Shown piece by piece: positions 8,906 through 26,730 of a stretch of DNA of 64,000 bases. The notes under the pieces were generated by a model. That model saw only the letters and a program-made list of their open reading frames with translations. It ran no database searches and had not been told where the DNA came from. The stretch covers positions 248,001-312,000 of the forward strand of contig NZ_QJSP01000007.1 of the NCBI RefSeq assembly GCF_003217475.1. The letters run 5' to 3'. The translations under genes were made by a program, and so were the position numbers. Within the stretch, counting starts at the first letter, position 1, and the number at the start of each line of letters is the position of its first letter. Source of the DNA: Williamsia limnetica (lineage in GTDB: Bacteria > Actinomycetota > Actinomycetes > Mycobacteriales > Mycobacteriaceae).

Positions 8906-9481
8906 TCACGGACGACCCGGCAGAAGCTGGACGAACAGTGCTTCCGCCTCGGCGCACACGATGTCGCCATCGGACAGGGTGCCGGTCACAAACGTCTTGC
9001 GCCCTTCGATCTTGTCGATTGATGCGGTCATCCGCAGTTCGCGGTTGACGGGGGTGGTGTTGCGGTAGTTGACCTTCAGAAACGCCGTTCGGGAATTCGG
9101 TTGACCCTTACGGCTGACGAACATCCCGAGGACGTCGTCGAACAGCATGGTGATCACTCCACCGTGGACGGTATTGGTGCTTCCCATGTGTGCGTAACTG
9201 AACGTGACCGATCCGAGCATGCCGGTGTCGGACATGTCGGTCGCCTGGTACGGAACGAGGACCGGATGTCCGATCCCCCGCAACCCCAGCTCACGAGCGA
9301 CGCGATCCCCCTCGGGTGCCTCGAATTCTTTGAGCCGATTAGTCACATCCTCAATTGTCGCCGTCAGCTCGGTGGTCGCCTCGGGCGGCGGCGCGACCAG
9401 GCAAAGTGTCGCCTGCAGGTCTCGGAACGCTTCGATCATGTCGACGAAAACGTCGGTGTCGTAGGCCTGCGCCTCTGTCAT
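8906..9481 (-). CDS. PaaI-like hotdog-fold thioesterase
   Basis: A 191-residue protein whose C-terminal 120 residues form a hotdog thioesterase domain with the signature HGGVITMLFDDVLGMF, in which the His-Gly-Gly and downstream Asp form the usual acyl-CoA site, then FLKVNYRNTTPVNREL. The N-terminal 60 residues form an extra helical segment. Such enzymes release CoA from dead-end or aromatic acyl-CoA esters and so protect the free CoA pool. It lies 12 nt after the F420 enzyme gene and 34 nt before the SDR, within the operon. Confidence 0.82.
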   Translation of the reverse strand: MTEAQAYDTDVFVDMIEAFRDLQATLCLVAPPPEATTELTATIEDVTNRLKEFEAPEGDRVARELGLRGIGHPVLVPYQATDMSDTGMLGSVTFSYAHMGSTNTVHGGVITMLFDDVLGMFVSRKGQPNSRTAFLKVNYRNTTPVNRELRMTASIDKIEGRKTFVTGTLSDGDIVCAEAEALFVQLLPGRP

Positions 9482-10426: not shown

Positions 10427-10436
10427 CGTCACACCT

Positions 10437-11624
10437 TCATTTGAAGAGTTCGCGGGCGATCACAACACGCTGCACTTCGGTAGCGCCTTCGCCGAGCCGT
10501 TTCACGCGCAGATCGCGGAACCACCGCTCCAGGGGCAATTCGTCGGAGAGGCCGAGAGCACCGTGGACCTGGATGCACTTGTCGATGACCTTGTAGGCCA
10601 CCTCGGTGCCGTACATCTTGGCGATCGACGCATCGACCTTGACGTCTTTACCGAGGTCGGCGTTCCAGGCCGCCTGATACATCAGCAGCCGGGCCGCCCG
10701 CAGTTCCACTTCGGCGTCGACCAACATCCAGGCAATGCCTTGCTTGTCAGAGAGTTTGCCGCCGAAGACCTCTCGGTCCTTGGCCCAGCGGCACGCCGCG
10801 TCCAGGGCTTCTTGCGCGATACCGATCGGCCCGGCGGCGTAGATGATCCGGCTGTAGATCAGGAAGTCGCTGGCCAGTTTGAACCCGCCGCCTTCGGCGC
10901 CGATCAGGTTCGACACCGGCAGTCGCACGTTGTCGAAATGCAGCTCGTACGGCGAGAACGACGCCATCACACCGATACGGCTGAAGGACAGTCCGGGTGT
11001 GTCCTTTTCAACAATGAAGCACGAGATGCCGGCCCTGCCCTCACCGGTCCGGGCATACACCACACCCCAGTCGGCGTTCTCGGCGTGTGAGGTCCACATC
11101 TTACTGCCGTTGAGAACGTAGTCGTCGCCGTCTCGCACAGCCTTGAGGGTGATGGCCCGGGCCGGATCCGACCCGCCGGTCGCCTCACTGATGGCCGTGT
11201 AGGCCTTGGTCATCCGGCCGTCGAGTATCGGTTGCGCGAACTTCTCGAACTGCTCGGCCGACGCCTTGAACATCACATTGGGTGGATTGCCGCCGAAAGC
11301 ACCCAACGCCGGGAAAAACGCTCCCATTCGGCACTTGGATGCTTCTTCGGCCACCACCACCTGGCCGAGCACGCTCAGTCCCGCACCGCCGAACTCCTCC
11401 GGGGTCTGCAGGGCCCACAGTCCGAGTCGGCGGGCTATGTCCTGCAACCGGATCAACTGATCCCGAGGAAGTCCGGCGGCGTCGTGCGGAAGGGTGGCCT
11501 CGAGCGGGTGCACCTCGCGCTCCATGAACCGCCGCACCGTCTCGCGAAGCATGCGCAACTCATCGGGCAGCTCCCAAGATCCGAGCGGCGGACCTTGGAC
11601 GTCTGTGACGGCATCCACAGTCAT
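10437..11624 (-). CDS. Acyl-CoA dehydrogenase
   Basis: A 395-residue FAD-dependent acyl-CoA dehydrogenase of full length. It has the helical N-domain, the FAD-binding TAISEATGGSDPA and KMWTSHAENADWGVV motifs, and the C-terminal QVHGALGLSDELP followed by RLGEGATEVQRVVI, where the Glu of EGAT is the expected catalytic base. It would introduce an alpha,beta double bond into an acyl-CoA or act on a cyclic acyl-CoA. Eight nt separate it from the flavin reductase gene upstream, and it is followed by the LLM enzyme. Confidence 0.9.
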   Translation of the reverse strand: MTVDAVTDVQGPPLGSWELPDELRMLRETVRRFMEREVHPLEATLPHDAAGLPRDQLIRLQDIARRLGLWALQTPEEFGGAGLSVLGQVVVAEEASKCRMGAFFPALGAFGGNPPNVMFKASAEQFEKFAQPILDGRMTKAYTAISEATGGSDPARAITLKAVRDGDDYVLNGSKMWTSHAENADWGVVYARTGEGRAGISCFIVEKDTPGLSFSRIGVMASFSPYELHFDNVRLPVSNLIGAEGGGFKLASDFLIYSRIIYAAGPIGIAQEALDAACRWAKDREVFGGKLSDKQGIAWMLVDAEVELRAARLLMYQAAWNADLGKDVKVDASIAKMYGTEVAYKVIDKCIQVHGALGLSDELPLERWFRDLRVKRLGEGATEVQRVVIARELFK

Positions 11625-11632
11625 GTGTGGCC

Positions 11633-12217
11633 TCAGACCTTCTGACCGAAGCGGTGGTCCTTGGCGCTCTGCAACTGTGGAACGTGGTTGGCGTCGTACT
11701 GCTCGATCCAGTCCTCGGGTAGTTTGCCCCAGGCCTCACCGATTTTGATGCGTTGAGCTTCGCTGAACACCTCGGAGGCGACAACGTCGCCGACGAAGAT
11801 AGTGCTCTCCTGGACGTCTAGGGATCCGACCACGCGGCACTCTACGTAGCTGTGCGCGTCGAGAAGGATCGGCGCTCCCGTCTCGCCGGTCTTGGTTCGC
11901 AGCTTCCCGATCTTGTCACCATCGCGGCCCGAGCTGCCGCCGAGTGTCATCAGGATTTCCATCGACGCATCGACCTCGTCGTCCCCGGCACTGAGCATGT
12001 GCATGACGAATACGCCCGAGTTCAGGACCATGTCATGGGTCATGTTGTATTTGGTCAGCCCACACATCGCCCTCGGAGCTTCGGGGATGATGCTCGCCGA
12101 ACCGGCAGACAAGGACATCAGGCCGTTGGCGAACCCGCCGTCGACTGTCGTGATGGCGACCGGGAACGGGCGCAGGCCGGCCAGCGTTTTATTTGCCGCG
12201 TTGATATCTACCGTCAT
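11633..12217 (-). CDS. Flavin reductase-domain protein
   Basis: A 194-residue FMN-binding split-barrel protein: PFPVAITTVDGGFANGLMSLSAGSAS and later GVFVMHMLSAG are the usual flavin reductase-like signatures. It could supply reduced flavin to a two-component monooxygenase or transfer electrons directly to a substrate. No flavin-dependent monooxygenase is visible next to it; the nearest flavin enzymes are the acyl-CoA dehydrogenase and the F420 enzyme downstream. A sterol/aromatic HsaB-like role would need an HsaA partner, which is not seen. Spacing in the operon is tight on both sides. Confidence 0.75.
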   Translation of the reverse strand: MTVDINAANKTLAGLRPFPVAITTVDGGFANGLMSLSAGSASIIPEAPRAMCGLTKYNMTHDMVLNSGVFVMHMLSAGDDEVDASMEILMTLGGSSGRDGDKIGKLRTKTGETGAPILLDAHSYVECRVVGSLDVQESTIFVGDVVASEVFSEAQRIKIGEAWGKLPEDWIEQYDANHVPQLQSAKDHRFGQKV

Positions 12218-12247: not shown

Positions 12248-13447
12248 TCAGCTCTTGGCGGGCGAGGGCACGTCGATGACCACTGCTCCGGCTTGTCCAC
12301 CACCGGCGCACATCGCCGCGACACCGTATCCGCCTCCGCGACGGCGTAATTCGTTGATCAGGGAGAGAATCATGCGCGCGCCCGACGCCGCCACCGGATG
12401 ACCGATTGAGCATCCGCTTCCGAGTACGTTGACGATGTCCTCGCTGATGCCGAGCTTCTTGCACGCTGCGACCGGCACCGCGGCAAAAGCCTCATTGATT
12501 TCCCAGAGCGCCACATCGGACACCCCGATGCCGGCGCGGTCGAGGACCTTGGGAATGACGTCCAGAACAGCAAGGCCGGTGTGGGCCGGGTTGATACCGG
12601 TTGCTGCCCAGGCCTTCACGGTGGCCAAGACCTCGAGCTCCTCGGCCGCGGCAAGATCGGAGCCGACCACCATGACGGCGGCGGCGGCGTCATTGATGCC
12701 GCTGGAGTTACCGGCCGTGATCGAGAATCCCTCGATCTCGGGGTGCAGGGTCTTCAGACCGGCCAGCCGTTCCGCTGTGGTGTCGCGACGCGGGTGCTCG
12801 TCCGTGGTGAACTCGACGAACGTGCCGTCTTGCTGTCGCGCCGAGACAGGGATGATCTCGTCGACAAAGGCCCCCGAGTCGATGGCGGCGATGGCTCGCT
12901 GATGTGAACGAAGTGCCCAGGCGTCCATTTCTTCGCGGGTCAGGTCGAGTTCGGTCGCGGTGTTCCACCCGACCGTGATCGACATGTCCATGTTCGGGGC
13001 CTCAGGGCTGTCCGGATGGGTCGGCGGCATCCACTTGTTGGTGAACTCGTCGACGGTGCCGGGCGTCCGGAAGGACTGCAGTGGGCTGGTGGAGATCGAT
13101 TGCGTGCCGCCGGCGATGATTGCCCGCTCGGCACCGGAGATGATCTGCGCTGCCGCGTTTCCGATCGCGGTCAGGCTGCCCGCACAATGCCGGTTGATGG
13201 CCTGGCCGGGGACCTGGGTCATCCCGGTCACCACCGCCGCGTGCCGCGCGACATCGCCGCCGCCGTAGTTCGACTCGGCGAGGATGATGTCATCGATCTG
13301 CGAAGGCTCGAGGCCCGAGCGCTTCTGGACCTCTGCGACAACGACTTCGGCGAGTTCCATCGCCGTCGTGTCGCGCAGGGTTCCCTTGAAGGAGGTGCCG
13401 ACCGGGGTGCGCGCTCCGGCGACGATGACGGCTTCGATGGCTGACAT
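12248..13447 (-). CDS. Acetyl-CoA acyltransferase (classical thiolase)
   Basis: A 399-residue thiolase with all catalytic residues: the nucleophilic Cys88 in NRHCAGSL, the GHPVAASGARM histidine motif and MCAGGGQAGA near the C-terminus. It would cleave a 3-ketoacyl-CoA to acetyl- or propionyl-CoA and a shortened acyl-CoA. The ATG at 13447 gives the standard family start SAIEAVIVAGARTPVG. It lies between an aldehyde dehydrogenase and the flavin reductase gene. Unlike the three SCP2-type thiolases elsewhere in the window it retains the cysteine and is a true thiolase. Confidence 0.9.
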   Translation of the reverse strand: MSAIEAVIVAGARTPVGTSFKGTLRDTTAMELAEVVVAEVQKRSGLEPSQIDDIILAESNYGGGDVARHAAVVTGMTQVPGQAINRHCAGSLTAIGNAAAQIISGAERAIIAGGTQSISTSPLQSFRTPGTVDEFTNKWMPPTHPDSPEAPNMDMSITVGWNTATELDLTREEMDAWALRSHQRAIAAIDSGAFVDEIIPVSARQQDGTFVEFTTDEHPRRDTTAERLAGLKTLHPEIEGFSITAGNSSGINDAAAAVMVVGSDLAAAEELEVLATVKAWAATGINPAHTGLAVLDVIPKVLDRAGIGVSDVALWEINEAFAAVPVAACKKLGISEDIVNVLGSGCSIGHPVAASGARMILSLINELRRRGGGYGVAAMCAGGGQAGAVVIDVPSPAKS

Positions 13448-15002: not shown

Positions 15003-17375
15003 TCAGCGAAAACGTGGGGTGCGCTTGTTCTTCCGGGAATCGCTCCGGCCTGATCCCACATTCCCGATCTGCGTGTACGACAGACCGGTTCGCAGCGCGG
15101 TGGACGGTGTCATGTCCAGCGACTCCCAGATCGCACGCACCGTGCCCTGGATGGCCTCCGGGCGCCGTCCGGCGATCTCGGTTGCAAGTTGTTGCGCACG
15201 ATCACGCAGTTCGGTTCGGGACGTGATCTCGGTGACGATGCCGGTCCGCAGAGCACTGTCAGCGGTCATCCTCTCGTCACTACCGATCAGCGCCCACCGC
15301 AATACCTCGCCCAGTGGTATCCCACGGGCCAGCATGCCCATCGGTTCGAGCGCGGAGACGATGCCGGCGTTGGCATGGGGGTCGAAGAAGGTGGTGTCGT
15401 CGCTGCAGATGACGATGTCGGACTCGTTGACGAAATACATCGCGCCACCGGCGACCATCCCATGGAGCGCACAGACAACCGGCTTCCAGACCCGATGTTG
15501 TTTCGGTCCCAGCAGAACGCCGGGGTCTTCCTGGTTGAATCGGTTGATGTGTGTCCACCAGGCGCCTTCGCTGACGTCCACACCGGTGCAGAAGGCGCGG
15601 TCACCGTTGGCTTGCAGCACAGCGACGCGGATGTCGTCGTCATCGCGGACCCGTCCCCAGATCTCCGCCATTTCATTGGCCATCGTCTCGTTGAAACAAT
15701 TCAGCCGATCAGGCCGGTTCAGCGTGATGGTGGCGATGTGGTCGGCGACCTCGAACTCCACTGTTGTGTACTGTGATTCGGACGTCATCGTGGACACCGA
15801 GACCTTTTCTGCGGGGTCGAGGAGATCGCTGCGCACCTGCGACTTGGTGATCTTCCCGAGAGAGTTGCGGGGAATCCGGTCGACTACTTCAACCTGTTCC
15901 GGGTACTTGCGCTTGTTGAGGGTCGTGGTCGCGAGGTATGCGCGGATAGAATCCAGGTCCGGCGGTACATTCGGATCGTTCGGCACCACCACCGCGCACA
16001 CCCGCTCCCCTGATACGTTGTCGGGCATGCCGATCACAGTGAGGTCGGCGATGGCGGGATCGTTGATCAGCGCTTCCTCGACCTCGCGCGCCGAGATGTT
16101 TTCCATCTTGCGCACGATGATGTCCTTGATCCGTCCGGTCACCGAGAGCCGGCCGGCAGTGTTCAGGAAACCGAGATCGCCCGTGCGGAAGAATCCCTGC
16201 TCGTCGAGCGCACCCTCATCCTGGGCCGAGTCCACGTAGCCGTGGAACAGTTGTGGGCCGTGCACGCGGATCTCGCCGATCTCGCCGACTGGCAGTTCGG
16301 TGCCATCGGCACCCACGATGCGCACCCGTCCCTGCGGACCGGGTGTACCTTCGAAGACCGCATGTTCGTCGTCCGTGTCGTCCGGACTACCCCATGTCAG
16401 GTACGGGCATTCGGTCATCCCGTATCCCGAGATGATGCCTACTCCCCCGAGATGTTGTGATGTCGCCCGGCTCAATTCGGCCGGTCGACCCGACCCGCCA
16501 CCGAGAGTGGCACGTGCCCGAGGGAACAGTGGAGCAACACCGCTCTCACGTGAGATGCGAACGTATTCGGTGGTGAACGGCAGGCCCGAACCGATCAGGG
16601 TGGCGCCCTCGGAGATCAGCTGTTTCGCATTGTCCTCGGGAACAAAGGCGGCCGCTGTGATCAGGGTGTGCCCGACCAACAGACTGCTCAAGACGTGGGC
16701 GATGCCTCCCACGTGTGTGATCGGCACGTAGGCGGCGCAGCGCTCATCGGGAGTCACCTGCACATTGGTGACAAAGGTCTTTGCAGCAGAGATCAATCCG
16801 GCATCACCGTGTTTGACGCCTTTGGGCGCCGCTGTGGTCCCGGAAGTGTAGAAGATCCAGCTCACCGCGTTGTCGTCGCGTTCCGAGCGGGTCGGCAGCG
16901 TCGAGGGATCCCCGGACATCCACGTCTCGTCGACGATCAAGGTCCGCAGGCCGTCGGTCCGCTCGGCGACCGCGATCGCCATGGCCCCGTGATCAAAACC
17001 CCGGAACCCGGCGGGCACGATAAGCAGCGATGCGCCGACCTGCCCGGTGATGAACGCGACCTCACTCTCCCGCAGCATCGGGATGATCGGATTCTGCACC
17101 GCGCCCAGGCGCGACAGGGCCAGCGACAGCGCCATGGATTCGACACTGCTCGGCAGCTGCCACGACACCACGTCGCCGACCCGGACGCCGTGGGCGTAAA
17201 GGGCTGCGGCCGTGGTCTCTGCCAGATCCGACAGGGCGGCGAAGGTGAAGCGGCGTCCGTGTTCGTCGACGGCGAACTCCCGCGACGGGCTCAGTTCCAC
17301 CCGCTCGCTCAGGAGATCCCAGTAGTTCGTCGCCTTTGCGATCGCGACCACCGGCTTGTTCTGTGTGGAGGTCAC
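15003..17375 (-). CDS. Acyl-CoA ligase fused to enoyl-CoA hydratase-like domain
   Basis: A single 790-residue open frame with two enzymes. Residues 1-520 form an AMP-forming acyl-CoA ligase with the P-loop FYTSGTTAAPKGVKHG, YGMTECPYLTWG, TGDLGF and the catalytic Lys in PRNSLGKITKS. After a short linker (LDPAEKVSVST), residues 530-790 form a crotonase domain starting TTVEFEVADHIATITLNRPD with the oxyanion-hole motif RAFCTGVDV. The two hydratase glutamates are replaced (VAGGAMYFV and FFDPHANAG), so it is unlikely to be a normal hydratase; isomerase, hydrolase or C-C lyase activity is possible. An internal ATG at residue 530 has no convincing ribosome site. Start overlaps the previous ligase stop (ATGA). 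Confidence 0.85.
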   Translation of the reverse strand: MTSTQNKPVVAIAKATNYWDLLSERVELSPSREFAVDEHGRRFTFAALSDLAETTAAALYAHGVRVGDVVSWQLPSSVESMALSLALSRLGAVQNPIIPMLRESEVAFITGQVGASLLIVPAGFRGFDHGAMAIAVAERTDGLRTLIVDETWMSGDPSTLPTRSERDDNAVSWIFYTSGTTAAPKGVKHGDAGLISAAKTFVTNVQVTPDERCAAYVPITHVGGIAHVLSSLLVGHTLITAAAFVPEDNAKQLISEGATLIGSGLPFTTEYVRISRESGVAPLFPRARATLGGGSGRPAELSRATSQHLGGVGIISGYGMTECPYLTWGSPDDTDDEHAVFEGTPGPQGRVRIVGADGTELPVGEIGEIRVHGPQLFHGYVDSAQDEGALDEQGFFRTGDLGFLNTAGRLSVTGRIKDIIVRKMENISAREVEEALINDPAIADLTVIGMPDNVSGERVCAVVVPNDPNVPPDLDSIRAYLATTTLNKRKYPEQVEVVDRIPRNSLGKITKSQVRSDLLDPAEKVSVSTMTSESQYTTVEFEVADHIATITLNRPDRLNCFNETMANEMAEIWGRVRDDDDIRVAVLQANGDRAFCTGVDVSEGAWWTHINRFNQEDPGVLLGPKQHRVWKPVVCALHGMVAGGAMYFVNESDIVICSDDTTFFDPHANAGIVSALEPMGMLARGIPLGEVLRWALIGSDERMTADSALRTGIVTEITSRTELRDRAQQLATEIAGRRPEAIQGTVRAIWESLDMTPSTALRTGLSYTQIGNVGSGRSDSRKNKRTPRFR

Positions 17376-18940
17376 GACGACACCTGGGAGGCCGCAACCT
17401 TCTCCGGGGCCGGGACCAGCGAATCAGCGATCACACGCTTGAGGATCTTGCCGGCCGGTCCGAGCGGGAACTCGGTCCGGAACTCGAAGCGTCTCGGTTG
17501 CTTGTAGCCGGCCAATTCGGCGCGGCACAGCGCGGTGAGTTCGGCCGTCACGGCGTCTTCGTGGATGTTTCCCTTGGGGACCACAACAGCGATGGGCGTC
17601 TCGCCCCATTCCGGGTCCGGGACACCGACGACGGCGACCATCTCCACTGCGGGATGATGTCCGATGACGCGTTCGATCTCGGCCGGGTACACGTTGAAGC
17701 CACCGGAGATGATCATGTCCGTCTTGCGGCCGGTGATGTGCAGGTAGCGCTCGGAGTCCAGGTATCCGAGGTCACCGGACCACAGGCCACTCGGGCGGAA
17801 CGACTGCTTGGTCTGATCCGGACGATTCCAGTACCCGACGGCGTTGGCTTCGCTCACGATGACGATCTCGCCGACCTCACCGGTGGGCAGGTCGTTCCCG
17901 TCGGCATCGACGATCCTGATCGAGCACATCGGGGTCTCCTGGCCGCAGGAGGTCAGGATGCTCGTCTTGCCGTCGACCATGTCGCGGTGATCCTGCGGCG
18001 TCAGGATGGTTGCCTGACCGCCACATTCGGTGAGTCCGTAGCGCTGCTGCAGATCGCACCCGAGCAGATCCATTGCTTTCTTGGCCAGGCCCGGAGGAAC
18101 GGGTGCCGAACCGTAGCTGATCCGGCGCAGACTCGACATGTCCCGCGGCGGGCCTTCTTCGAGGATCCGCAGGGTGCGCTGCAACATTGTGGGGATGAAC
18201 GTGGTGAAGGTGACTCCGCTGCGCTCGATCTCGTCTATGACCGCCTGCGGATCGAATCGCTTGTGGATCACCATGGTCTGGCCGAGGTACGTCCACGACA
18301 GCGTCCGAACCATTCCGCCCGCGGTGAAGAACGGAGTGGTCGCGAGGAACACGTCGCTTCGGTTGGTCTCGGTGACCAGACTGGTGTCGACGGCTTGCGC
18401 GAGCATGCCGCGGTGGGTATTGATAACGCCCTTGGAACGGCCTGTGGTGCCGCTCGTGTACAGGATGAACTGAATATCGTCCGGCCGCAGCGATTCCGGC
18501 GTCGGATCGTTGTCGTCGGCGGCGCGCAGTGCTGTCTCGTAGTCAGCTCCCACCGTGCTTCCGCCGATTTCGAGTAGTGCCTTCAGATCGCCCAGCTCTG
18601 AACCGAACCGCTCGACCTGATCGGTGTGGACCACCGCGGCCACCGCCCCCGAGTCGTCGCGGACATGGGCCAGTTCGTCTGGCGCCAGCCGGATGTTCAC
18701 CGGCACGGTCACGAGTCCCGCCTTAGCGAAGGCGAAGGTGATCTCCGGCCATTCGATGCAGTTGCGGGCGATCACGATGACCCGGTCGCCCTTGCGCAGC
18801 CCCGCGGCAAGCATGTGGTTGGCCAGGCGGCGGGCCCGCTCATCGACGTCACCCCAGGTGTGGGTCCGCCCGGACTCGACGACGGCGGGTTTGTCCGGGT
18901 ATCGACGAGCGTTGTTCGTGGAGATGTCGCCTACAAGCAC
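17372..18940 (-). CDS. AMP-forming acyl-CoA ligase
   Basis: A 522-residue ANL-superfamily ligase that would activate a carboxylic acid to its CoA thioester with ATP. Motifs: LYTSGTTGRSKGV (phosphate loop), YGLTECGGQ, SGDLGYLD hinge, GGFNVYPAEIE and the C-terminal PAGKILKR with catalytic Lys. It starts with GTG after GTGAGG. It follows the Rieske beta gene by 57 nt and overlaps the fused ligase by 4 nt. By its place beside the Rieske/thiolase/DUF35 set it is the candidate for the ligase that activates the aromatic acid substrate, the position held by IpfF in ibuprofen degraders. Confidence 0.88.
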   Translation of the reverse strand: MLVGDISTNNARRYPDKPAVVESGRTHTWGDVDERARRLANHMLAAGLRKGDRVIVIARNCIEWPEITFAFAKAGLVTVPVNIRLAPDELAHVRDDSGAVAAVVHTDQVERFGSELGDLKALLEIGGSTVGADYETALRAADDNDPTPESLRPDDIQFILYTSGTTGRSKGVINTHRGMLAQAVDTSLVTETNRSDVFLATTPFFTAGGMVRTLSWTYLGQTMVIHKRFDPQAVIDEIERSGVTFTTFIPTMLQRTLRILEEGPPRDMSSLRRISYGSAPVPPGLAKKAMDLLGCDLQQRYGLTECGGQATILTPQDHRDMVDGKTSILTSCGQETPMCSIRIVDADGNDLPTGEVGEIVIVSEANAVGYWNRPDQTKQSFRPSGLWSGDLGYLDSERYLHITGRKTDMIISGGFNVYPAEIERVIGHHPAVEMVAVVGVPDPEWGETPIAVVVPKGNIHEDAVTAELTALCRAELAGYKQPRRFEFRTEFPLGPAGKILKRVIADSLVPAPEKVAASQVSS

Positions 18941-18997
18941 GTTGCCTCACAGGTACTTCGGCGCGAAGGGGTGTCCTTCGCGGGATGGGATGGTGGT

Positions 18998-19513
18998 TCA
19001 GATCAGGAATGCGAGAGTGTCGACCGGTCCACCGGCGCTGATCATGTGGACGGTTTTGCTCGCCAGCTTGAATCCGCCGGCATGGCGGCGGACCTTGTGG
19101 ATCACCCGGCCGGCCCAGACCCGTTGGGTGTGTCGGTATTCGAAGAGGGCGAAGTTCGAGCCGACCGTGACTGTGTCGTCGGTGGAGTCGAGAACCTCCA
19201 TGTTGGTCAACTGGCGTCGCATCACCGACGGCGGGGTCTGCGAATGCCGGTTCCCGGTGTTGAGCTGTGCAACACGACTTTTGATGCGTCGGCGGTTGTC
19301 ATAGATGTACGACAGGTTGGTCGCGGGATCGTCGTCGGGATGCATGGGCACCCAATACAGCGCGTCGTCGTCCCACAGCAACTCCCACTCGGAGTACCGC
19401 GCCTCGTCGGCCAGCCGGGCCTCGAGATACAAGAAGCCTGCCACTTCCGGCGACGGCGCCGGCAGCGGCTGCAGAGCCGACGAGAAGACGTCGGTGTCAT
19501 CGAGGGTGCTCAT
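18998..19513 (-). CDS. Rieske ring-hydroxylating dioxygenase, small (beta) subunit
   Basis: A 171-residue SnoaL-fold beta subunit. The order FLYLEARLADEARYSEWELL, WVPMHPDD, SYIYDNRRRIKSRVAQL and FALFEYRHTQRVWAGRVIHKVRR is that of aromatic-ring dioxygenase beta subunits of the benzoate/cumate/biphenyl type. It has no metal site and stabilises the alpha3beta3 hexamer. The ATG at 19513 overlaps the alpha stop by 4 nt, showing coupled translation of the two subunits. Confidence 0.92.
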   Translation of the reverse strand: MSTLDDTDVFSSALQPLPAPSPEVAGFLYLEARLADEARYSEWELLWDDDALYWVPMHPDDDPATNLSYIYDNRRRIKSRVAQLNTGNRHSQTPPSVMRRQLTNMEVLDSTDDTVTVGSNFALFEYRHTQRVWAGRVIHKVRRHAGGFKLASKTVHMISAGGPVDTLAFLI

Positions 19514-20808
19514 TTGCTGATCTCCTGTCCCACGACGCCGGCCCACTGGCGATAGAAGCCCCGCTGGGGCGTCTCGGCGCTTTTGTCGCTGTTCACGATT
19601 CCGGTCTCGTCGGTGATGTCGGTCTCGAGTCCACGGGACAGCCGCAGCCATTCCGGATCCCGGGCTGCCAGACCTGCCTGGTTACGCATGCCGATCTCAC
19701 CGTCGTCGGCGATGAGAAATCCGGCTGGCCCCATGGCGCCCTCGGAGCGACGCAGGGTGCGCACGTTCAGATCGTCTTGTCCCGGGATCAGGGCCGCCGT
19801 GGTGTACGCGATCGTCTCGTCGGGACCGATGGGTTCGACGAACATCACGTTCATCTCGGCCAGGAACAGATTGGGCCAGATCAATGTGTGCGGCGGACCG
19901 ACGACCATCGAATCGTGTGCCTTTTCTTCGCCGTACTTCTTCTCCAGCGCCGCAACATATTTGGGTAGCTTGGTGCGGGGCATCCGGCCGTACCAGATGA
20001 ACTCCTCGTCCAGCTTGCGATATTCGGCAGAGTAGTCGATCTCGGAGTGACCGTCGCCGAGGTCCCGAACCACCACGTCGGTCTTCGACGGGATGTGCGA
20101 CACCTTGGCCGGGCGGATCGCGTCGTAGACCGACGCATGGGTGAACAGCGCGTGATAGCCATCGACGTTGTTCTCCACCACCATCTTCCAATTGGCGTGA
20201 TGCAGGTGCTTCATCCAGTTGGCACGCAGATCGATCGTCCCGGTCGGCGACAGGTTCAGCAGGCGGTCGAAGGCCGCGATCGAACCGCCGAGATGTTCGG
20301 TGAGCGAAGGGCCGTCGGCGGCCAGAGAAGCGAAGATGAAGCCGCCGTAGCTGTCGACCCGAGGCGCCTCGGCCATCCCGAGCTCGGACCTCACAGCGCG
20401 GAAAGCCTCGCCGTAGCCCTCCTTCATCGGAACAGCGGTCAGCGAACCGGTGTTGCTGAACGTCCACCCGTGGTACGGGCACCGGAACGAGCTGGCATTG
20501 CCCTTCTCGGCGTTGCACAGCTTGTTCGCGCGGTGCGAGCACCGGTTGAGCAGAACCCTGATCTCACCGTCCTTGCCATGGGACACGACGACCGGTTCGC
20601 TGCCGATCCGACGGGTCAGGTAGTCGCCGGGTTCGGCAACCTCGCTGTCATGCGCGACGTAGACCCAACCGGAGCGGAAAATGGTGTCCATCTCGCGCTG
20701 GAAGATCTCCGGTGACGTGTAAACCGAACCATGCACGCGGTCTTCCTGCACGATCTTCGACACGTCGAAGTCATTGGCGGTGCCGGGGTTCGACTCAGTG
20801 GTTGTCAT
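19510..20808 (-). CDS. Rieske ring-hydroxylating dioxygenase, large (alpha) subunit
   Basis: The 432-residue catalytic subunit. The [2Fe-2S] motif is C-x-H-x17-C-x2-H (NRCSHRANKL to FRCPYHGWTF, about residues 88-112). The mononuclear iron site is in MVVENNVDGYHALFTHASV with the bridging Asp before the two histidines. It adds two oxygens to an aromatic ring to give a cis-dihydrodiol; with CoA-linked substrates the product can collapse to a catechol. No dedicated reductase or plant-type ferredoxin is nearby, so electrons must come from elsewhere. The start overlaps the DUF35 gene by 14 nt. Confidence 0.93.
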   Translation of the reverse strand: MTTTESNPGTANDFDVSKIVQEDRVHGSVYTSPEIFQREMDTIFRSGWVYVAHDSEVAEPGDYLTRRIGSEPVVVSHGKDGEIRVLLNRCSHRANKLCNAEKGNASSFRCPYHGWTFSNTGSLTAVPMKEGYGEAFRAVRSELGMAEAPRVDSYGGFIFASLAADGPSLTEHLGGSIAAFDRLLNLSPTGTIDLRANWMKHLHHANWKMVVENNVDGYHALFTHASVYDAIRPAKVSHIPSKTDVVVRDLGDGHSEIDYSAEYRKLDEEFIWYGRMPRTKLPKYVAALEKKYGEEKAHDSMVVGPPHTLIWPNLFLAEMNVMFVEPIGPDETIAYTTAALIPGQDDLNVRTLRRSEGAMGPAGFLIADDGEIGMRNQAGLAARDPEWLRLSRGLETDITDETGIVNSDKSAETPQRGFYRQWAGVVGQEISK

Positions 20809-21256
20809 TGATGGCCTCCGTATCAGGGGAATTGATGGGCTGTACGGCCGGGATCGCTACTCCGGCGAGATTTCTGAAACCGATGTCGACGACATCGCCG
20901 ATCCGCGGCGCCCGGGTCACCGACTCGACCGTGGTCATGATCAACCGGTGGCCGCCGGCGAGTTCGATATCGACGATCGGGTACGGACCGGACGCGGTGA
21001 CCAGTCCCGGTTCGAGGCGGTGCATCAGGGTCGACGAATGAACAACTCCGGTCGGAGCTGTTTCGAGCCAATCGATCCGGTGAGACCCGCAGCCATCGCA
21101 GACGTGCTGCTCGAGGTCCAGTGCAAGAGAGCACACCGCGCAGAACGGGAGCACCAGCGCTCCCCGGGCGGCGCCGACGTACAGCTGTTCGAGCGGGTCA
21201 CCCGTCACCATTGGTGCGAGAGAATCGCTGAGCAGCCAATCGGTCGCGACACTCAT
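20795..21256 (-). CDS. DUF35 OB-fold protein with zinc ribbon
   Basis: A 153-residue protein with an N-terminal zinc ribbon (FCAVC and CDGCG, two CxxC pairs) and a C-terminal OB fold, RLEPGLVTASGPYPIVDIEL to GDVVDIGF. DUF35 proteins bind Ltp2-type thiolases and form the active complex; ChsH2 and IpfE are examples. It overlaps the thiolase gene by 4 nt and the Rieske alpha gene by 14 nt, so the three products are probably made in equal amounts. It is the partner of the protein encoded at 21253-22407. Confidence 0.88.
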   Translation of the reverse strand: MSVATDWLLSDSLAPMVTGDPLEQLYVGAARGALVLPFCAVCSLALDLEQHVCDGCGSHRIDWLETAPTGVVHSSTLMHRLEPGLVTASGPYPIVDIELAGGHRLIMTTVESVTRAPRIGDVVDIGFRNLAGVAIPAVQPINSPDTEAINDNH

Positions 21257-22407
21257 GCCGCACGCTCCAGGATCAGGGCGGCATGGTGATCGATCCGACC
21301 CCCGATGCCGCCGACCAACGCCGTCGAGGCGCCCGGTACCTGCCGACCGCCGCCGGTGCCGCGCAACTGCACGAGCGCCTCGGCCAACGGGGTCATCCCC
21401 TGCAAGTAGAACCCGGACAGCTGACCGCCGCCGGTGTTGGTGGGCAGAGTGCCGCCCGCAGCAGTGTTGCCTTCGCGCACAAACTTTCCGGCCGGCGCTC
21501 CCCCGGTGAGTCCGTATTCTTCGAGGAGGATCAGCGTTACCACCGAGAAGGGGTCATAGAGTTGGACCGTGTCCAAGTTGTCGCGAGTCATCCCGGCCTT
21601 GGCCAGCGCGTCGTCCACGCATCGCCTGCCCCCGCCGAACCAGGACTCTGCTCCGGTGCGCCGGTGACGGACCGGATGATCCCGGCCGGTACCGCGGATG
21701 TCCACGCGCACCGGGTTTCCCACTGCCGGGTCGGCACTGACGATGACCGCTACGGCGCCATTGACGGGCCGTGCGCAGTCGAGCCGTCGCAGCGGATCGG
21801 AGATCATCGGGCTGTCCAGGTAGCCCTGGATGTCCAGCGGTGTGCGGATCACCGCATCGGGATTGTCGAGCGCCCAGGTGCGCGTCGTCGTGGCCACCGC
21901 GCAGAGATCCTCGGGCAAACCATCACTGACATGCATCCATCGCTGAGTGAGCAGGGCGTAGGTGGGTACTGAGCCGAGCACGCCACTGGCGCGCTCCAGG
22001 CCACGTGATCCGGATTGGCCGCCGCTCTGCGCATAGGTGGAGCCCGCAGCCTTCCCGGCAACGAGGGGCGCGTCGGCAAAGACGCACATGACCACGCGTG
22101 CGGCCCCGGTCTCCACCGCGTGCTGAGCCCGCTGGATCATCGCAATGGTGGTGGCGCCCTTGATCTCCACGTGCTCGAGCAGTCGCAGATCAGAGAATCC
22201 ACCCGACGATGCGAACCCGACGCCGAGCCGGTCCGGCCGGATCCCCTGTGACGAACCGACCAGCAGTCCGTCCACGTCTGACAGCTCGATCCCGGCGTCG
22301 GCCACTGCATCTCGGCTCGCGCTACAGGCGAGTTCGAGGGGGCTGTCCCCCGGCTTGAGGGACATCGGCGTCATACCCAAGCCAACGATCCCTGCGGTCG
22401 CCGTCAC
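21253..22407 (-). CDS. SCP2/Ltp2-type thiolase-fold protein (cysteine-less, retro-aldolase type)
   Basis: A 384-residue thiolase-fold protein of the lipid-transfer (SCP2/Ltp2) group. The place of the thiolase cysteine is occupied by VEIKGATTIAMIQ, so it cannot do normal Claisen chemistry. It keeps the tyrosine motif LYDPFSVV and LPTNTGGGQLSGFYLQG seen in Ltp2 retro-aldolases. With its DUF35 partner it would cleave a C-C bond next to a hydroxylated carbon. Next to a Rieske dioxygenase and a ligase, this fits IpfD, which removes the acyl-CoA side chain from a ring diol. GTG start, 4-nt overlaps on both sides. Confidence 0.87.
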   Translation of the reverse strand: MTATAGIVGLGMTPMSLKPGDSPLELACSASRDAVADAGIELSDVDGLLVGSSQGIRPDRLGVGFASSGGFSDLRLLEHVEIKGATTIAMIQRAQHAVETGAARVVMCVFADAPLVAGKAAGSTYAQSGGQSGSRGLERASGVLGSVPTYALLTQRWMHVSDGLPEDLCAVATTTRTWALDNPDAVIRTPLDIQGYLDSPMISDPLRRLDCARPVNGAVAVIVSADPAVGNPVRVDIRGTGRDHPVRHRRTGAESWFGGGRRCVDDALAKAGMTRDNLDTVQLYDPFSVVTLILLEEYGLTGGAPAGKFVREGNTAAGGTLPTNTGGGQLSGFYLQGMTPLAEALVQLRGTGGGRQVPGASTALVGGIGGRIDHHAALILERAA

Positions 22408-22718
22408 GGTGTCCTCCCGCGCACGGGTCCCAGAGAGCGGTCACGGCGCTCGTCCCGGTAGTTCCCGACGCGCAGCCAGTCCTCCCTGTCGTCGGGCGTC
22501 GCCAGACACAGGCTGACGAGTTCGAGCGGTGACAGGAAGATGTAGTCATCACTCTCGAGGTCTTCGACGAGCAGCCTGTCCCCGTTACCGGTCGAGTCCA
22601 GCGACACGCGTACCGCCGCGAACTCGTTGATCAGGGATGCCAGTTCTCGACGGCGCACCCGGCGCGCATCGGCGTCGCCGTGTCCGGCGTCAGCATCTTC
22701 ATGTTCGGTGATAGTCAT
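22404..22718 (-). CDS. Small conserved protein, first gene of the Rieske operon
   Basis: A 104-residue hydrophilic protein: an Arg-rich N-terminal helix (ADARRVRRRELASLINEFA), then strands VRVSLDSTGNGDRLLVEDLE and the segment IFLSPLELVSLCLATPDD. Proteins with this pattern sit beside Rieske genes in other actinobacteria and are sometimes labelled dihydrodiol dehydrogenase, but there is no Rossmann fold or catalytic motif here, so that name should not be carried over. It leads the 14.6-kb operon and overlaps the thiolase gene by 4 nt. Function unknown; an assembly or regulatory role is possible. Confidence 0.65.
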   Translation of the reverse strand: MTITEHEDADAGHGDADARRVRRRELASLINEFAAVRVSLDSTGNGDRLLVEDLESDDYIFLSPLELVSLCLATPDDREDWLRVGNYRDERRDRSLGPVRGRTP

Positions 22719-22964: not shown

Positions 22965-23861
22965 ATGACTGAGACAGTGATTTCCGCCCCCGCGGCCGAC
23001 ACCGACGAGTACCGCAGCATCTGGAGCCATCTGCGGGAATTGGAGTTCCGGCAGGGCTTCGTGGACATCGGCGGGGTGCGGACACGGTTCGCCGAGGCTG
23101 GATCTCCCGACAAACCGCACGCCATCCTGCTGCACGGGACCGGCGGACATTGGGAGACCTTCGCGCCGAACCTCGGTCCACTCTCGAAGGACTACCACTG
23201 CGTCGCGATCGACATGGTCGGCAACGGTTTCTCCGACAAGCCCGACTACGACTACGAGATCGCGGTCTACGTCAAACAGATCCTCGGCGTGATGGAGCAC
23301 TTCGGAATGGAGAAGGCGCACTTCATCGGCATGTCCCTGGGCGCCTGGGTCTCGGCTGCCATCGCGGTGGAGCACCCGGAACGGGTCGACAAGGTGATCC
23401 TGATGTCGCCCGCCGGCCTGATCGCCACCGCATCGAACATGGCCCGCATCCGCGCCGAGCGCACCGAAGCGGTCAACAACCCCAGCTGGGAGTCCCTCCA
23501 CAAGGTGTTCGCACACCTCATCGCGGATGAATCAAACCGGCTGCCTGATCTCATCGCACTCCGGCAGGCGATCTACCGCCGCGACGACACCCGCACCACG
23601 ATCGACCATCTGCTGATCCTGCAGGAGGCCGAAGCCCGTGATCGCAACCTCATTCCCGAGGAGAAGTGGGCGACCATCGCCGCCCCGACCATGGTGGTGG
23701 CATCAGGCAAGGACGACGGCGAGTATCAGAGCACCGCGCACATCGTCGCCAGCTTGATCCCGAATGCCGAGGTGTTCCAGATGGCCGAGGTCCGGCACTG
23801 GCCGCACTTCGAGGATCCCGCGGCCTTCAACCCGGCTGCGCTGGAGTTCTTGCGGCGATGA
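22965..23861 (+). CDS. Alpha/beta hydrolase, meta-cleavage-product hydrolase type
   Basis: A 298-residue serine hydrolase. It shows the HGTGG oxyanion loop (LLHGTGGHWETF), the nucleophile elbow GMSLGAW with Ser near residue 125, a late Asp (VASGKDDGEY) and His in VRHWPHFEDP. The lid region and the DMVGNGFSDKP segment match the group that hydrolyses the C-C bond of 2-hydroxy-6-oxo-dienoates after ring cleavage. It starts the plus-strand operon, opposite the Rieske operon, and overlaps the hydratase gene by 4 nt. The three-gene order hydrolase, hydratase, aldolase supports the meta-cleavage role. Confidence 0.85.
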   Translation: MTETVISAPAADTDEYRSIWSHLRELEFRQGFVDIGGVRTRFAEAGSPDKPHAILLHGTGGHWETFAPNLGPLSKDYHCVAIDMVGNGFSDKPDYDYEIAVYVKQILGVMEHFGMEKAHFIGMSLGAWVSAAIAVEHPERVDKVILMSPAGLIATASNMARIRAERTEAVNNPSWESLHKVFAHLIADESNRLPDLIALRQAIYRRDDTRTTIDHLLILQEAEARDRNLIPEEKWATIAAPTMVVASGKDDGEYQSTAHIVASLIPNAEVFQMAEVRHWPHFEDPAAFNPAALEFLRR

Positions 23862-24688
23862 CGAACACGACCCTGCCCGATACGGAGATCGCCGAGCTGG
23901 CGCGCCGCCTGCACGAGGCCGAACAGACGCGGGTCCCGATCCGGCAGATCTCGCTGCAGTATCCCGAGATGACCGTCGAGGACTCGTATGCGGTCCAGCG
24001 GGAACTGATCCGCCTGAAGGTCGCCGGCGGCGCCGTGGTTCGCGGCCGGAAGATCGGTCTCACGTCCAAGGTGATGCAACGCGCCGTCTCCATCACCGAA
24101 CCCGACTACGGCGCGCTGCTCGACGACATGTTCTTCGACGACGGCGGAATCGTGCCGGCCGGCCGCTTCATCCGGCCCCGCATCGAGGTCGAACTCGCCT
24201 TCATCCTCGGCGAGCCGCTGACCGGACCCGGCGTGACCCTGTACGACGTGCTGCGGGCGGCGGAGTACGTGACGCCGGCACTCGAGATCCTCGACGCGCG
24301 CGTGCAGATGGCTGATCCGGACACCGGGCACCTGCGCACCATCGTCGACACCATCAGCGACAACGCAGCCGACGCCGGCATCGTGCTCGGCGGGCGGGTG
24401 ATGAAGCCGATGGACGTCGACCTGCGATGGGTTGCCGCACTGCTGCTCAAGAACGGCTCGATCGAAGATTCCGGTGTTGCTGCGTCGGTATTGGGCCACC
24501 CGGCCAACGGTGTGGCGTGGCTCGCCAACCGACTTGCACCTCATGGGGTTTCGTTGAACGCGGGCGAGGTGATCCTGGCCGGCTCCTTCACCGCACCGGT
24601 CTTCGCCGAGCCCGGTGACACCTTCGTCGCCGACTACGGACCGATGGGGACCGTGTCGATACATTTCGCCAAGGAGAGTTCCGAATGA
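23858..24688 (+). CDS. 2-hydroxypenta-2,4-dienoate hydratase (2-keto-4-pentenoate hydratase)
   Basis: A 276-residue member of the fumarylacetoacetate-hydrolase-fold hydratases. It has [29 protein letters not shown], the acidic metal ligands in [13 protein letters not shown] and [12 protein letters not shown], and the closing [23 protein letters not shown]. It adds water to the dienol acid left by the hydrolase to give a 4-hydroxy-2-oxoacid. It overlaps the genes on both sides by 4 nt (ATGA), so hydrolase, hydratase and aldolase are translationally coupled. Confidence 0.92.
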
Positions 24689-25473
24689 CGAACGCTGCGC
24701 AATCCAACACCTGGAATCGGCAGATCCACGGAGACCGCGCCCAGATCGGGATGTGGATCGCGTCCGGCAACGCCTACAGCGCCGAGATCTGCGCCGGCGC
24801 CGGTCTCGACTGGCTGATGCTCGATCTCGAGCACGTCCCCAACGACATCAGGTCGACTCTGGCGCAGCTCCAGGCCCTCGCGGCCTACCCGGTCCAGGTG
24901 TTGGTGCGTCCGGCGTCCGGGGACCCGATCGCCATCAAACAGCTCCTCGACATCGGTGCGACGAATCTGATCGTTCCGATGGTCGAATCCGCTGACGAGG
25001 CCCGGGCGCTGGTCGCGGCCACGCGTTACCCACCAGAGGGCATTCGTGGAGTCGGTAGCGCCCTCGCCCGAGCCTCACGCTGGAATCGCATTTCTGACTA
25101 TCTGGCCACAGCAGATGACTCCGTGTCACTCACCGTCCAGGTCGAATCCGCGGCTGCTCTCGAGCGCCTCGATGAGATCGCCGCAGTCGACGGCGTCGAC
25201 GCCGTCTTCATCGGCCCGGCTGATCTGGCAGCGTCGTTGGGATACCTGGGCAAGCCTGAACATCCCGAGATGGTGGCACTGATCGAGAAAGCGTTGTCGC
25301 AGATCAAAGCCACCGGAAAGGCGGCAGGCGTCAACGCGTTCAACCCGGAACTCGCTCAGCGATACATGGCCGCGGGCGCTTCGTTCGTCTTGGTCGGCGC
25401 CGACGTCACGGTGCTGGCCCGCGGCAGCGAGGCACTGACCGCGCGCTTCATCCCGGGACCGGACAAAATCTGA
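24685..25473 (+). CDS. HpcH/HpaI-family 4-hydroxy-2-oxoacid aldolase
   Basis: A 262-residue class II pyruvate aldolase. Key elements are [31 protein letters not shown], the arginine in VLVRPASGD, the metal-binding [13 protein letters not shown] to [10 protein letters not shown] and [12 protein letters not shown]. It would cleave a 4-hydroxy-2-oxoacid to pyruvate and an aldehyde. Most meta pathways use the DmpG/BphI aldolase with an acylating aldehyde dehydrogenase; here the HpaI type is used and no DmpF-like partner is seen, so a separate aldehyde dehydrogenase (such as the one at 13479) would be needed. Confidence 0.9.
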
Positions 25474-25557: not shown

Positions 25558-26730
25558 ATGGATTTGGACTTCAGCACCGAACAGTTGGAGTTCCGAGATG
25601 AGGTGCGCACGTGGCTCCGGGAGAACAAGCCCACCGAGCCCCGCCCCCGCGAGGCCGACGGCATCCGTGAGTACGACACCGCGTGGCAGCGCACCCAGTG
25701 GAACGGCGGCTGGGCTGGCATTGCCTGGCCGAAAGAATACGGTGGCGGCGGCCTGACCCTGCTGCAGCAGCTCATCTGGTACGAAGAGTATGCGGCGCAG
25801 GGATTTCCAGGAATCGACGCCAACTTCGTCGGGCTCTCGCACGCCGGCCCCACTCTGATCACCAGAGCCGACGAAACCATGAAAGACTTCCACCTCCGAA
25901 AGATCCTGCGCGGAGAAGTGATCTGGTGCCAGGGGTTCTCGGAGCCCGAAGCAGGTTCCGACCTCGCCTCACTGCGCGCCAAGGCCGTCATCGACGGCGA
26001 TCATCTCGTGGTCAACGGCCAGAAGATCTGGACCAGCTTCGCGACGATCGCCGACTACCAAGAGCTGCTGGTACGCACCGACAACACCGGATCCAAACAC
26101 CAGGGGATCACCTGGATCATCTGCGACATGGCAACGCCCGGCATCGAGATCCGTCCGATCGAGACCATCGAGGGTGGCGCCGAGTTCTGCGAGGTGTTCT
26201 ACGACGACGTTCGAATCCCGTTGTCGAACATCGTGGGTGAGATCAATGACGGCTGGAGTGTCGCGATGTCGACGCTCTCGTTCGAGCGTGGCACCGCATT
26301 CACGGCCAACCAGGTCCGTCTCGCCAAGGTCGTCGAGGACCTCATCGAGTTCTCCCGTGACCACGTCGGACCGGACGGCCGCCGTCCCGCCATCGCCGAC
26401 GACGAGATCGCCCGGCGACTGGCACGTGCCCGCGCGGCCGTGACCTCGCTGCGAGCCATGACGTACGTCGGAATCTGTCGCAGCATGCAGACGGACACCC
26501 CGGGCCCCAAGGGGTCGATGCTCAAACTGTTCTACGCCGACTTGGCCAAACAGGTGGCGGAACTGGCGATGGACATCATCGGGTCGGACGCCCTGCGCAG
26601 CACCTCCCGATGGGACAAGAACGGTTGGGTCGGCAACTACCTCTACGCGTTCTCCCAGTCCATCGGCGGCGGCACCTCCGAGATCCAGCGAAACATCGTC
26701 GGCGACCGGGTCCTCGGACTCCCACGCTGA
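25558..26730 (+). CDS. Acyl-CoA dehydrogenase, FAD-binding subunit of a split pair
   Basis: A 390-residue acyl-CoA dehydrogenase. It begins MDLDFSTEQLEFRDEVRTWL, has WCQGFSEPEAGSDLASLRA and GQKIWTSFATIADY at the FAD site and ends IGGGTSEIQRNIVGDRVLGLPR. With the shorter gene that follows 16 nt later it forms the arrangement of heteromeric FadE pairs such as ChsE1/ChsE2, which oxidise CoA esters of rings and branched side chains. In the related fused protein at 58453 the two halves are one chain. It opens a transcription unit with an operator 46 nt upstream. Confidence 0.9.
   Translation: MDLDFSTEQLEFRDEVRTWLRENKPTEPRPREADGIREYDTAWQRTQWNGGWAGIAWPKEYGGGGLTLLQQLIWYEEYAAQGFPGIDANFVGLSHAGPTLITRADETMKDFHLRKILRGEVIWCQGFSEPEAGSDLASLRAKAVIDGDHLVVNGQKIWTSFATIADYQELLVRTDNTGSKHQGITWIICDMATPGIEIRPIETIEGGAEFCEVFYDDVRIPLSNIVGEINDGWSVAMSTLSFERGTAFTANQVRLAKVVEDLIEFSRDHVGPDGRRPAIADDEIARRLARARAAVTSLRAMTYVGICRSMQTDTPGPKGSMLKLFYADLAKQVAELAMDIIGSDALRSTSRWDKNGWVGNYLYAFSQSIGGGTSEIQRNIVGDRVLGLPR

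Follow-up and report, generated by a model that had tools for sequence, protein, structure and literature searches.

Gene content and organization of the operon

The 64,000-nucleotide stretch of Williamsia limnetica DNA analysed here (contig NZ_QJSP01000007.1, positions 248,001 to 312,000; referred to as the window) carries on its minus strand, between positions 22718 and 17372, six co-directional genes for a small protein, an Ltp2-type thiolase-fold protein, an OB-fold (DUF35) protein, the alpha and beta subunits of a Rieske oxygenase, and an acyl-coenzyme A (CoA) ligase. We consider it likely that this operon is an actinobacterial sister of the upper pathway of ibuprofen degradation (the Ipf system), in which the CoA ester of an aromatic acid would be dioxygenated at the ipso position, its side chain released by retro-aldol cleavage, and the resulting catechol opened by an extradiol dioxygenase. 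The six genes and their products are:

22404..22718, minus strand: small protein of 104 aa, belonging to an unannotated family of actinobacterial Rieske operons (no Pfam match; recognised with a hidden Markov model, HMM)
21253..22407, minus strand: predicted thiolase-fold retro-aldolase of the Ltp2/IpfD type (Pfam Thiolase_C_1; Cys and His lost, Tyr284 within YDPF and Tyr334 kept)
20795..21256, minus strand: OB-fold (DUF35/ChsH2-C) partner, counterpart of IpfE (Pfam OB_ChsH2_C)
19510..20808, minus strand: Rieske oxygenase alpha subunit of the IpfA clade (Pfam Rieske and Ring_hydroxyl_A; placed by phylogeny)
18998..19513, minus strand: Rieske oxygenase beta subunit (Pfam Ring_hydroxyl_B; start picked from the sequence)
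17372..18940, minus strand: acyl-CoA ligase lig1, candidate counterpart of IpfF (AMP-binding domain)

The first five genes overlap by 4, 4, 14 and 4 nt, followed by a gap of 57 nt between the beta subunit gene and lig1. The latter overlaps by 4 nt with the next gene, which encodes a 790-aa fusion of a ligase with an enoyl-CoA hydratase/isomerase (ECH) domain, and the co-directional run extends past 17372 down to about 8906. A divergent operon begins at 22965. A first-pass annotation of the window had already placed the Rieske subunits, the acyl-CoA ligase, the Ltp2-type thiolase and the DUF35 protein together in one operon, and all of these genes are indeed present where it located them; the overlaps of 4 to 14 nt that it described throughout are found among the first five genes and not between beta and the ligase.

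Relationships of the Rieske oxygenase

The alpha subunit shares 99% identity with its counterpart in Williamsia sp. 1138, 98% with that in W. muralis and 40% with IpfA, and the beta subunit is 47% identical to the beta subunit of the ipf locus. The IpfA sequence was taken from plasmid pIBU218; in the accessible part of PMC11347016, accession WP_208634570.1 is given as IpfA. We calculated a maximum likelihood tree of 51 alpha sequences with references including IpfA, BenA/XylX, HcaE, nitrobenzene and polycyclic aromatic hydrocarbon (PAH) dioxygenases, AndAc and IadD, the latter represented by chain 7yls, which was taken as IadD since it is near-identical to 9O71, the structure named IadDE in the part of PMC12633357 available to us. 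In this tree the alpha subunit of the window and 15 orthologs form a single group (support 100/100), whose sister consists of the sequences from Phenylobacterium sp. J367 and one Ramlibacter copy (96/92). A clade of 31 sequences (100/99) unites this group with IpfA and leaves outside HcaE, the nitrobenzene/naphthalene-type and PAH dioxygenases, AndAc, IadD, and also BenA/XylX, which form a separate group (100/100). The outer branching order is uncertain due to long branches (IadD, AndAc). A phylogeny of the alpha subunit was the check that the first-pass annotation had proposed, and within a reference set lacking p-cumate dioxygenase the subunit groups with IpfA and not with benzoate-type free-acid dioxygenases.

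A sister branch of nine alpha sequences (100/100; loci L013-L018, L076, L078 and L099) belongs to operons with enoyl-CoA hydratases and short-chain dehydrogenases/reductases (SDRs), most of which also contain ordinary thiolase-like genes; no Ltp2-like match was found in these operons. They perhaps represent another CoA-linked ring pathway.

The thiolase-fold protein, its OB-fold partner and the ligase

The thiolase-fold protein is 42-43% identical to IpfD. In a tree of 30 sequences including IpfD, TcLtp2, SCPx and true thiolases (IadG was left out), it forms a clade of 15 sequences together with IpfD and the relatives from Phenylobacterium J367 and Ramlibacter (100/100), apart from TcLtp2, SCPx and the true thiolases. 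Branching with true thiolases, the outcome that would have spoken against the earlier proposal, was thus not observed. The sister relation of Phenylobacterium and Ramlibacter copy 1 to the window type received support of 84/64, and the alpha and thiolase trees agree in their nearest non-actinobacterial relatives.

In the alignment the nucleophilic cysteine of thiolases is replaced by glycine and the catalytic histidine of the GHP motif by tyrosine, which agrees with the annotation of a thiolase without cysteine. According to the accessible part of PMC12329534, Tyr294 (within YDHF) and Tyr344 of TcLtp2 act as base and acid, respectively. These residues align with Tyr284 (YDxF) and Tyr334 of the window protein, and both positions are retained in all 15 clade members sampled. 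The OB-fold partner carries an OB_ChsH2_C domain and a zinc-ribbon-like CxxC...CxxC motif, which IpfE lacks. The best NCBIfam family of lig1 is a general fatty-acid ligase, with a score below the cut-off.

Conservation of the operon in actinobacteria

A scan of named genomes yielded 78 relatives. Alpha subunits at least 65% identical to that of the window come from 58 loci, four of them on plasmids, in Williamsia, Gordonia, Rhodococcus, Nocardia, Nocardioides, Mycobacterium and kin, Tomitella, Streptomyces, Pseudonocardia, Frankia, Modestobacter, Actinoallomurus and others. For counting neighbours we kept the 42 loci with at least 20 kb of sequence, dropped the 16 shorter ones, included near-duplicate species and required at least 45% identity for a match. 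The thiolase-fold protein, the OB-fold protein, the beta subunit, the ECH domain, a C-C hydrolase and an HpaH-type hydratase are present in all 42 loci; the HpaI-type aldolase is found in 41. BLAST detected the small protein in 41 loci, and the HMM recovered it in the remaining one. Of the further genes, lig1 is present in 40 loci, the SCPx-type thiolase in 38, each of the PimC-like and PimD-like dehydrogenases in 37, the third acyl-CoA dehydrogenase in 32 and the flavin reductase in 30. Given this conservation, the grouping of the operon genes is not due to chance. At the same time, in an even draw of 397 genomes from the order of W. limnetica, only four contain an alpha ortholog (at least 68% identity), and nine further genomes contain relatives with 42-47% identity. 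The operon is thus widespread yet rare.

The ECH domain, fused to a ligase in the window, is encoded by a separate gene (60-70% identical) in a Mycolicibacterium metagenome-assembled genome (MAG), S. sulphureus, Frankia and Modestobacter. In an Acidimicrobiia MAG (L080, 10001-11282) the alpha gene is split over two reading frames and the genes for hydrolase and HpaH are fragmented as well, pointing to pseudogenes or assembly errors; this locus is not among the 58 loci, but is among the 35 genomes surveyed below.

Candidate ring-cleaving enzymes

The operon of the window itself contains no recognisable gene for a ring-cleaving enzyme. In the same genome, 45 kb from the Rieske genes and just past the end of the window, lies a gene for a predicted LigB-type extradiol dioxygenase (443.7 bits against a cut-off of 286 for PRK13370.1-3). 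In Streptomyces NBC_00564, Frankia, Actinoallomurus, a Streptosporangiaceae bacterium and an Acidimicrobiia bacterium, a single-domain VOC protein is encoded between the hydrolase and the small protein:

stretch L118, 5386-6264, minus strand: LigB-type extradiol dioxygenase gene
locus L012, 13235-13783, minus strand: single-domain VOC protein

Among 72,556 plasmids, LigB at 60% identity or more occurs in five, and these are the same five that hold an alpha subunit with at least 80% identity. In the 397 genomes of the order, which both scans were taken to cover, LigB was detected at E<=1e-60 in all four genomes with an alpha ortholog (68-100%) and in 1 of the 393 others, there at 46% (Fisher's exact test, p = 4.9e-9, kinship ignored). 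We also surveyed 35 distinct ortholog-bearing genomes (41 entries searched minus four outgroups and two repeats; some ortholog loci were left out). LigB is present in 27 of them, in 25 at 63-99% and in two Nocardioides at 51-52%, and VOC at 56-74% in seven; both enzymes together at these levels were found in none. LigB is located on the contig of alpha in 20 of the 27 genomes, at a distance of 11 to 93 kb. The four outgroup genomes (alpha 45-48%), which include Phenylobacterium J367, showed no LigB above 42%, and the genome of the window showed no convincing VOC homolog (best E 0.0014). The assignment of the VOC protein as an extradiol dioxygenase, suggested by weak family scores and by the swap with LigB, is putative. 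Two unrelated extradiol-type enzymes filling one slot are good evidence that the pathway runs via a catechol, as predicted from the Ipf system, and their co-occurrence with the operon lends independent support to this intermediate.

Genes suitable for the subsequent steps are found in the divergent operon:

22965..23861, plus strand: alpha/beta hydrolase resembling meta-cleavage C-C hydrolases such as HsaD, BphD and CumD (HsaD 103 bits, cut-off 400)
23858..24688, plus strand: HpaH-type 2-oxo-hept-4-ene-1,7-dioate hydratase (NCBIfam TIGR02312, 416.6 bits, passing the cut-off of 351.5)
24685..25473, plus strand: HpaI-type aldolase (TIGR02311, 350.4 bits, just below the cut-off of 368.8)
25558..26730, plus strand: PimC-like acyl-CoA dehydrogenase (far below the PimC cut-off)
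26747..27775, plus strand: IpdE2/PimD-like acyl-CoA dehydrogenase partner (below both cut-offs)
27772..28923, plus strand: SCPx-type thiolase
28960..30467, plus strand: acyl-CoA ligase, start approximate (AMP-binding domain in open reading frame 27981-30467; start guessed from the DK17 gene layout)

Judging from the HpaH match and the PimC/D-like dehydrogenases, the catechol may bear a carboxyalkyl group or a fused ring.

Proposed pathway

The first steps of the ibuprofen pathway in the Ipf system are described in the accessible part of PMC9195938. By analogy, the ligase would convert an aryl-acetic or 2-aryl-alkanoic acid to its CoA ester, and the alpha-beta Rieske oxygenase would add O2 at the ipso carbon of the ring, to which the side chain is attached, and at the adjacent carbon. 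Together with its OB-fold partner, the Ltp2-like protein would then perform a retro-aldol cleavage by means of Tyr284 and Tyr334, releasing an acyl-CoA and a catechol, whose ring might be opened by the LigB-type extradiol dioxygenase (or the VOC-type enzyme in Frankia and others). The C-C hydrolase, HpaH-type hydration and HpaI-type aldol cleavage would subsequently yield pyruvate and an acid-bearing aldehyde, which could be oxidised by an aldehyde dehydrogenase and further degraded in beta-oxidation-like steps by the PimC/D-like dehydrogenases and a thiolase. This scheme draws on observations of which genes are present, how widely they are conserved and with what they co-occur, on the trees and on the catalytic residues. 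From these we infer each of the reactions, the CoA ester as substrate of the oxygenase, and the substrate class. That the operon removes an acyl side chain from an aromatic acid in the manner of Ipf had been suggested in the first-pass annotation, and the alpha tree, the thiolase tree and the co-occurrence with LigB or VOC all favour it.

Several observations weigh against this assignment. Inside the clade of 31 sequences, the window type and the Ipf type are joined with a support of only 88/73, and identities to the Ipf proteins are as low as 29% for the OB-fold protein (IpfE) and 34% for the ligase (IpfF). To our knowledge, IpfAB is the sole clade member known for activity on CoA esters, and kinship with IpfAB is our one ground for proposing that the alpha subunit would act on such an ester. 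Neither a Rieske-type ferredoxin nor a dedicated reductase was seen in the operon. With respect to ring cleavage, LigB is encoded outside the operon, in 7 of the 27 genomes on a different contig from alpha, and its reading frame in Gordonia is interrupted by one TGA; one of the 35 genomes, a MAG, contains neither LigB nor VOC, and one Nocardioides genome holds LigB at 51% in addition to VOC at 44%. Furthermore, the family scores of VOC as a dioxygenase are weak, its best curated relative being the extradiol enzyme HpaD (30 bits). As electron carriers we can only offer guesses, one of which is encoded in the window:

31209..31403, plus strand: small ferredoxin with a single [4Fe-4S]-type cluster, candidate electron carrier

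A 571-aa protein whose gene adjoins that of LigB contains Fer4 and pyridine-nucleotide reductase domains and could likewise supply the oxygenase with electrons.

Among the alternative explanations, the one that survives best, though we consider it improbable, follows the order of the iad auxin pathway: oxygenation would take place first, on the free acid, and the ligase would form the CoA ester only afterwards, before the thiolase-fold protein strips the side chain. According to PMC12633357, free indole-3-acetic acid is the substrate of IadDE, and the acetyl chain is proposed to be taken off later by the ligase IadF and the thiolase IadG. The best sequence match of alpha in the PDB is 9O71, that is, IadDE, the kinds of genes are alike, and gene content alone would be compatible with this order. 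However, IadD, on its long branch, falls outside the clade that joins alpha to IpfA, and the nearest characterised aldolase in the thiolase tree (which does not include IadG) is IpfD and not a general thiolase.

Also unlikely, and ranking next, is that the thiolase-fold/OB-fold pair represents an ordinary Ltp2-ChsH2 aldolase shortening the aliphatic chain of a steroid- or terpenoid-like substrate, with the Rieske step being separate. Both Ltp2 tyrosines are present in the window protein, and the surrounding genomic island also encodes, besides a second thiolase/OB pair, a cytochrome P450 and MaoC proteins. Against this, all 42 long loci with alpha also contain the pair, the tree places the thiolase-fold protein with IpfD and away from TcLtp2, and among the genes of the operon proper we found no MaoC-type hydratase. 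A conventional operon for a free-acid dioxygenase of the benzoate or cumate type, combined with CoA genes of no relation to it, is very improbable, and its benzoate form was dropped on the BenA score and the alpha tree: although BenA (TIGR03229) is the best NCBIfam family of alpha, its 195.5 bits are far under the cut-off of 780.95, BenA/XylX and the alpha clade are separate groups (p-cumate dioxygenase not in the tree), and no diol dehydrogenase was recognised in the operon. A BenA passing this cut-off is encoded elsewhere in the genome.

An Ipf-like pathway thus remains the explanation that we prefer. The same gene set is found in dozens of actinobacteria; the chemistry therefore looks natural and widespread rather than like a recent response to a drug. 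Taken further, one might picture Ipf-type chemistry as old and natural in actinobacteria, stripping acyl chains (perhaps oxidised isopropyl groups) from possibly ring-fused plant or terpenoid aromatics, with the ibuprofen genes as one branch, two unrelated extradiol dioxygenases replacing each other in the ring-opening step, and the small protein as a hitherto unrecognised general accessory of actinobacterial alpha-beta Rieske oxygenases; as a whole we regard this picture as possible rather than probable. The ibuprofen genes described in the papers cited here are from a few sphingomonads. If our interpretation is true, the same chemistry spans Williamsia, Gordonia, Rhodococcus, Nocardia, Mycobacterium, Nocardioides, Streptomyces, Pseudonocardia, Frankia, Modestobacter and an Acidimicrobiia bacterium, which would hint at the origin of ibuprofen-type genes, make 35 or more sequenced genomes testable for the breakdown of arylpropionate drugs, and show in a concrete case how two unrelated enzymes can take the same step of a pathway.

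Two further ideas were rejected. The actinobacterial estrogen cluster aed had been considered as a model on account of LigB and P450, but in the accessible part of PMC12507874 it shows no Rieske, HpaH or HpaI step, a comparison made by description only. Strain B50 is reported there to be without a homolog of EdcC, a 2-oxoacid-ferredoxin oxidoreductase (OFOR); enzymes of this type are annotated in the DK17 and GD02 islands. Dehydroabietic (resin) acid, whose isopropyl group could become a 2-arylpropionate, is not supported as a substrate; its degradation by R. rhodochrous IEGM 107 is reported, in the part of PMC6891630 available, to proceed by 7-oxo and 11,12-dihydroxy intermediates.

A small protein family of actinobacterial Rieske operons

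The small protein had been noted in the annotation as an unknown addition to the gene set; it is present, but it is not special to this pathway. The small-protein HMM matched in those alpha-ortholog loci whose sequence extends sufficiently upstream, and close to the beta gene in 11 further actinobacterial Rieske loci, among them those on plasmids pRWAY01 and pNAPH. It had no match in 18 non-actinobacterial loci that contain a beta subunit. Copies outside the window include:

L165, 5765-6073; L163, 4921-5211; loci L167-L192: other copies of the small protein

A context-free search of 199 whole genomes of the order gave 26 matches in 21 genomes. Of these, 23 have alpha and beta inside a flank of 1.5 kb, and the remaining three are of the operon type described here, with the small gene first and alpha starting about 1.6 to 1.9 kb on; all 26 matches are thus confined to Rieske operons. 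A beta subunit match was found in 21 of 21 genomes with the small protein, compared to 70 of 199 overall. The models were built solely from Rieske-adjacent copies and the context-free search covered one order, so that very divergent members elsewhere could escape detection. The predicted structure (pLDDT 75.6) consists of four strands and two to three helices, and no convincing match was found in the PDB (best E 0.41). From its distribution, the small protein appears to be an accessory component of Rieske oxygenases in actinobacteria and not something added for this pathway, and the family might offer a new handle on the assembly or electron supply of these enzymes.

Continuation of the operon and the surrounding island

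Downstream of lig1 the co-directional run comprises:

15003..17375, minus strand: fused acyl-CoA ligase and ECH protein, 790 aa
13479..14972, minus strand: aldehyde dehydrogenase
12248..13438, minus strand: true thiolase, Cys and GHP kept
11633..12217, minus strand: flavin reductase
10437..11624, minus strand: acyl-CoA dehydrogenase, Glu within a GEGATE motif
9494..10432, minus strand: luciferase-like (LLM) oxidoreductase
8906..9481, minus strand: PaaI-type thioesterase (4HBT domain; 54% to a PaaI-family gene of DK17)

The Glu in the GEGATE motif is presumably the usual catalytic Glu. A role of the acyl-CoA dehydrogenase-like gene as a DszC/HsaA-type monooxygenase was rejected: DszC scored 29 bits compared to up to 254 for ordinary dehydrogenases, and HsaA was absent from the families listed.

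The operon belongs to a larger island with a counterpart of about 100 kb on the Rhodococcus plasmid pDK3 (DK17). Of 78 genes taken from the pDK3 island, 56 matched at 45% identity or more in the window or adjoining stretches and 65 in plasmid pGD02.2.1, and the gene order is only partly alike. For the other 22, including transporter, OFOR and DUF2889 genes, no match of at least 45% was found in the window or adjoining stretches. The island also contains:

38127..41706, minus strand: block of P450, ECH, zinc-ribbon OB-fold and SDR genes (72-90% to DK17)

This block is possibly an upstream side-chain module. The second thiolase-fold/OB-fold pair of the island (46844..48438, minus strand) is 84% and 79% like that of DK17; its thiolase-fold protein keeps YDxF, but has Arg at the position of Ltp2 Tyr344. 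An earlier description of this cluster was not found in the literature searched.

Comparison with known systems

The aed cluster of Rhodococcus sp. B50 is also actinobacterial and, as the window island, combines a P450 with an extradiol dioxygenase; the two were set side by side by description only, from the accessible part of PMC12507874. With the Ltp2-ChsH2 steroid aldolase the window pair has in common the fold, both tyrosines and the OB-fold partner, but TcLtp2 lies outside its clade, a MaoC partner is missing from the operon and a Rieske oxygenase is encoded alongside. The iad auxin operon of Variovorax likewise combines Rieske alpha and beta subunits, a ligase and a thiolase to strip an acetyl chain; besides the position of IadD outside the alpha clade, it differs in that its substrate is a free acid and its product anthranilate and not a catechol, as far as the available part of PMC12633357 describes it.

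Closer to the window type are Phenylobacterium sp. J367 (L077) and Ramlibacter albus copy 1 (L079), its sister group in both trees. J367 encodes within about 12.6 kb an IpfF-like ligase, alpha, beta, an IpfD-like protein (51% to IpfD), an OB-fold protein, a LigB-like protein (35%), a hydrolase (43%), an aldehyde dehydrogenase and HpaH (56%), and an HpaI-like aldolase (matched in two pieces) adjoins the ligase. These loci are proteobacterial, however, no small protein was found in them, and their LigB-like protein is only 35% identical to that of the window genome.

The five functions of ipfABDEF on plasmid pIBU218 of Rhizorhabdus wittichii MPO218 all have predicted equivalents in the window operon, with lig1 as the candidate for the role of IpfF, and the alpha subunit and thiolase share clades with their Ipf counterparts. 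The Ipf ring-cleavage gene, ipfL, is likewise located away from the upper operon, according to the accessible part of PMC9195938. As the annotation had pointed out, the gene order is unlike that of ipf, with the thiolase and DUF35 ahead of the oxygenase (small protein-D-E-A-B-F in the window, A-B-D-E-F in ipf). The window type further differs by the CxxC motifs kept in its OB-fold protein, the extra small protein, the actinobacterial host and the integration into a large island, and there is no sign of ibuprofen as its substrate. Judged by gene families (IpfL was not searched for), the lower pathways also differ, with LigB (or VOC), a C-C hydrolase, HpaH and HpaI in the window type versus IpfL and a semialdehyde dehydrogenase in Ipf. 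In functions and clades the operon is thus like Ipf, but it differs in gene order, lower pathway and hosts.

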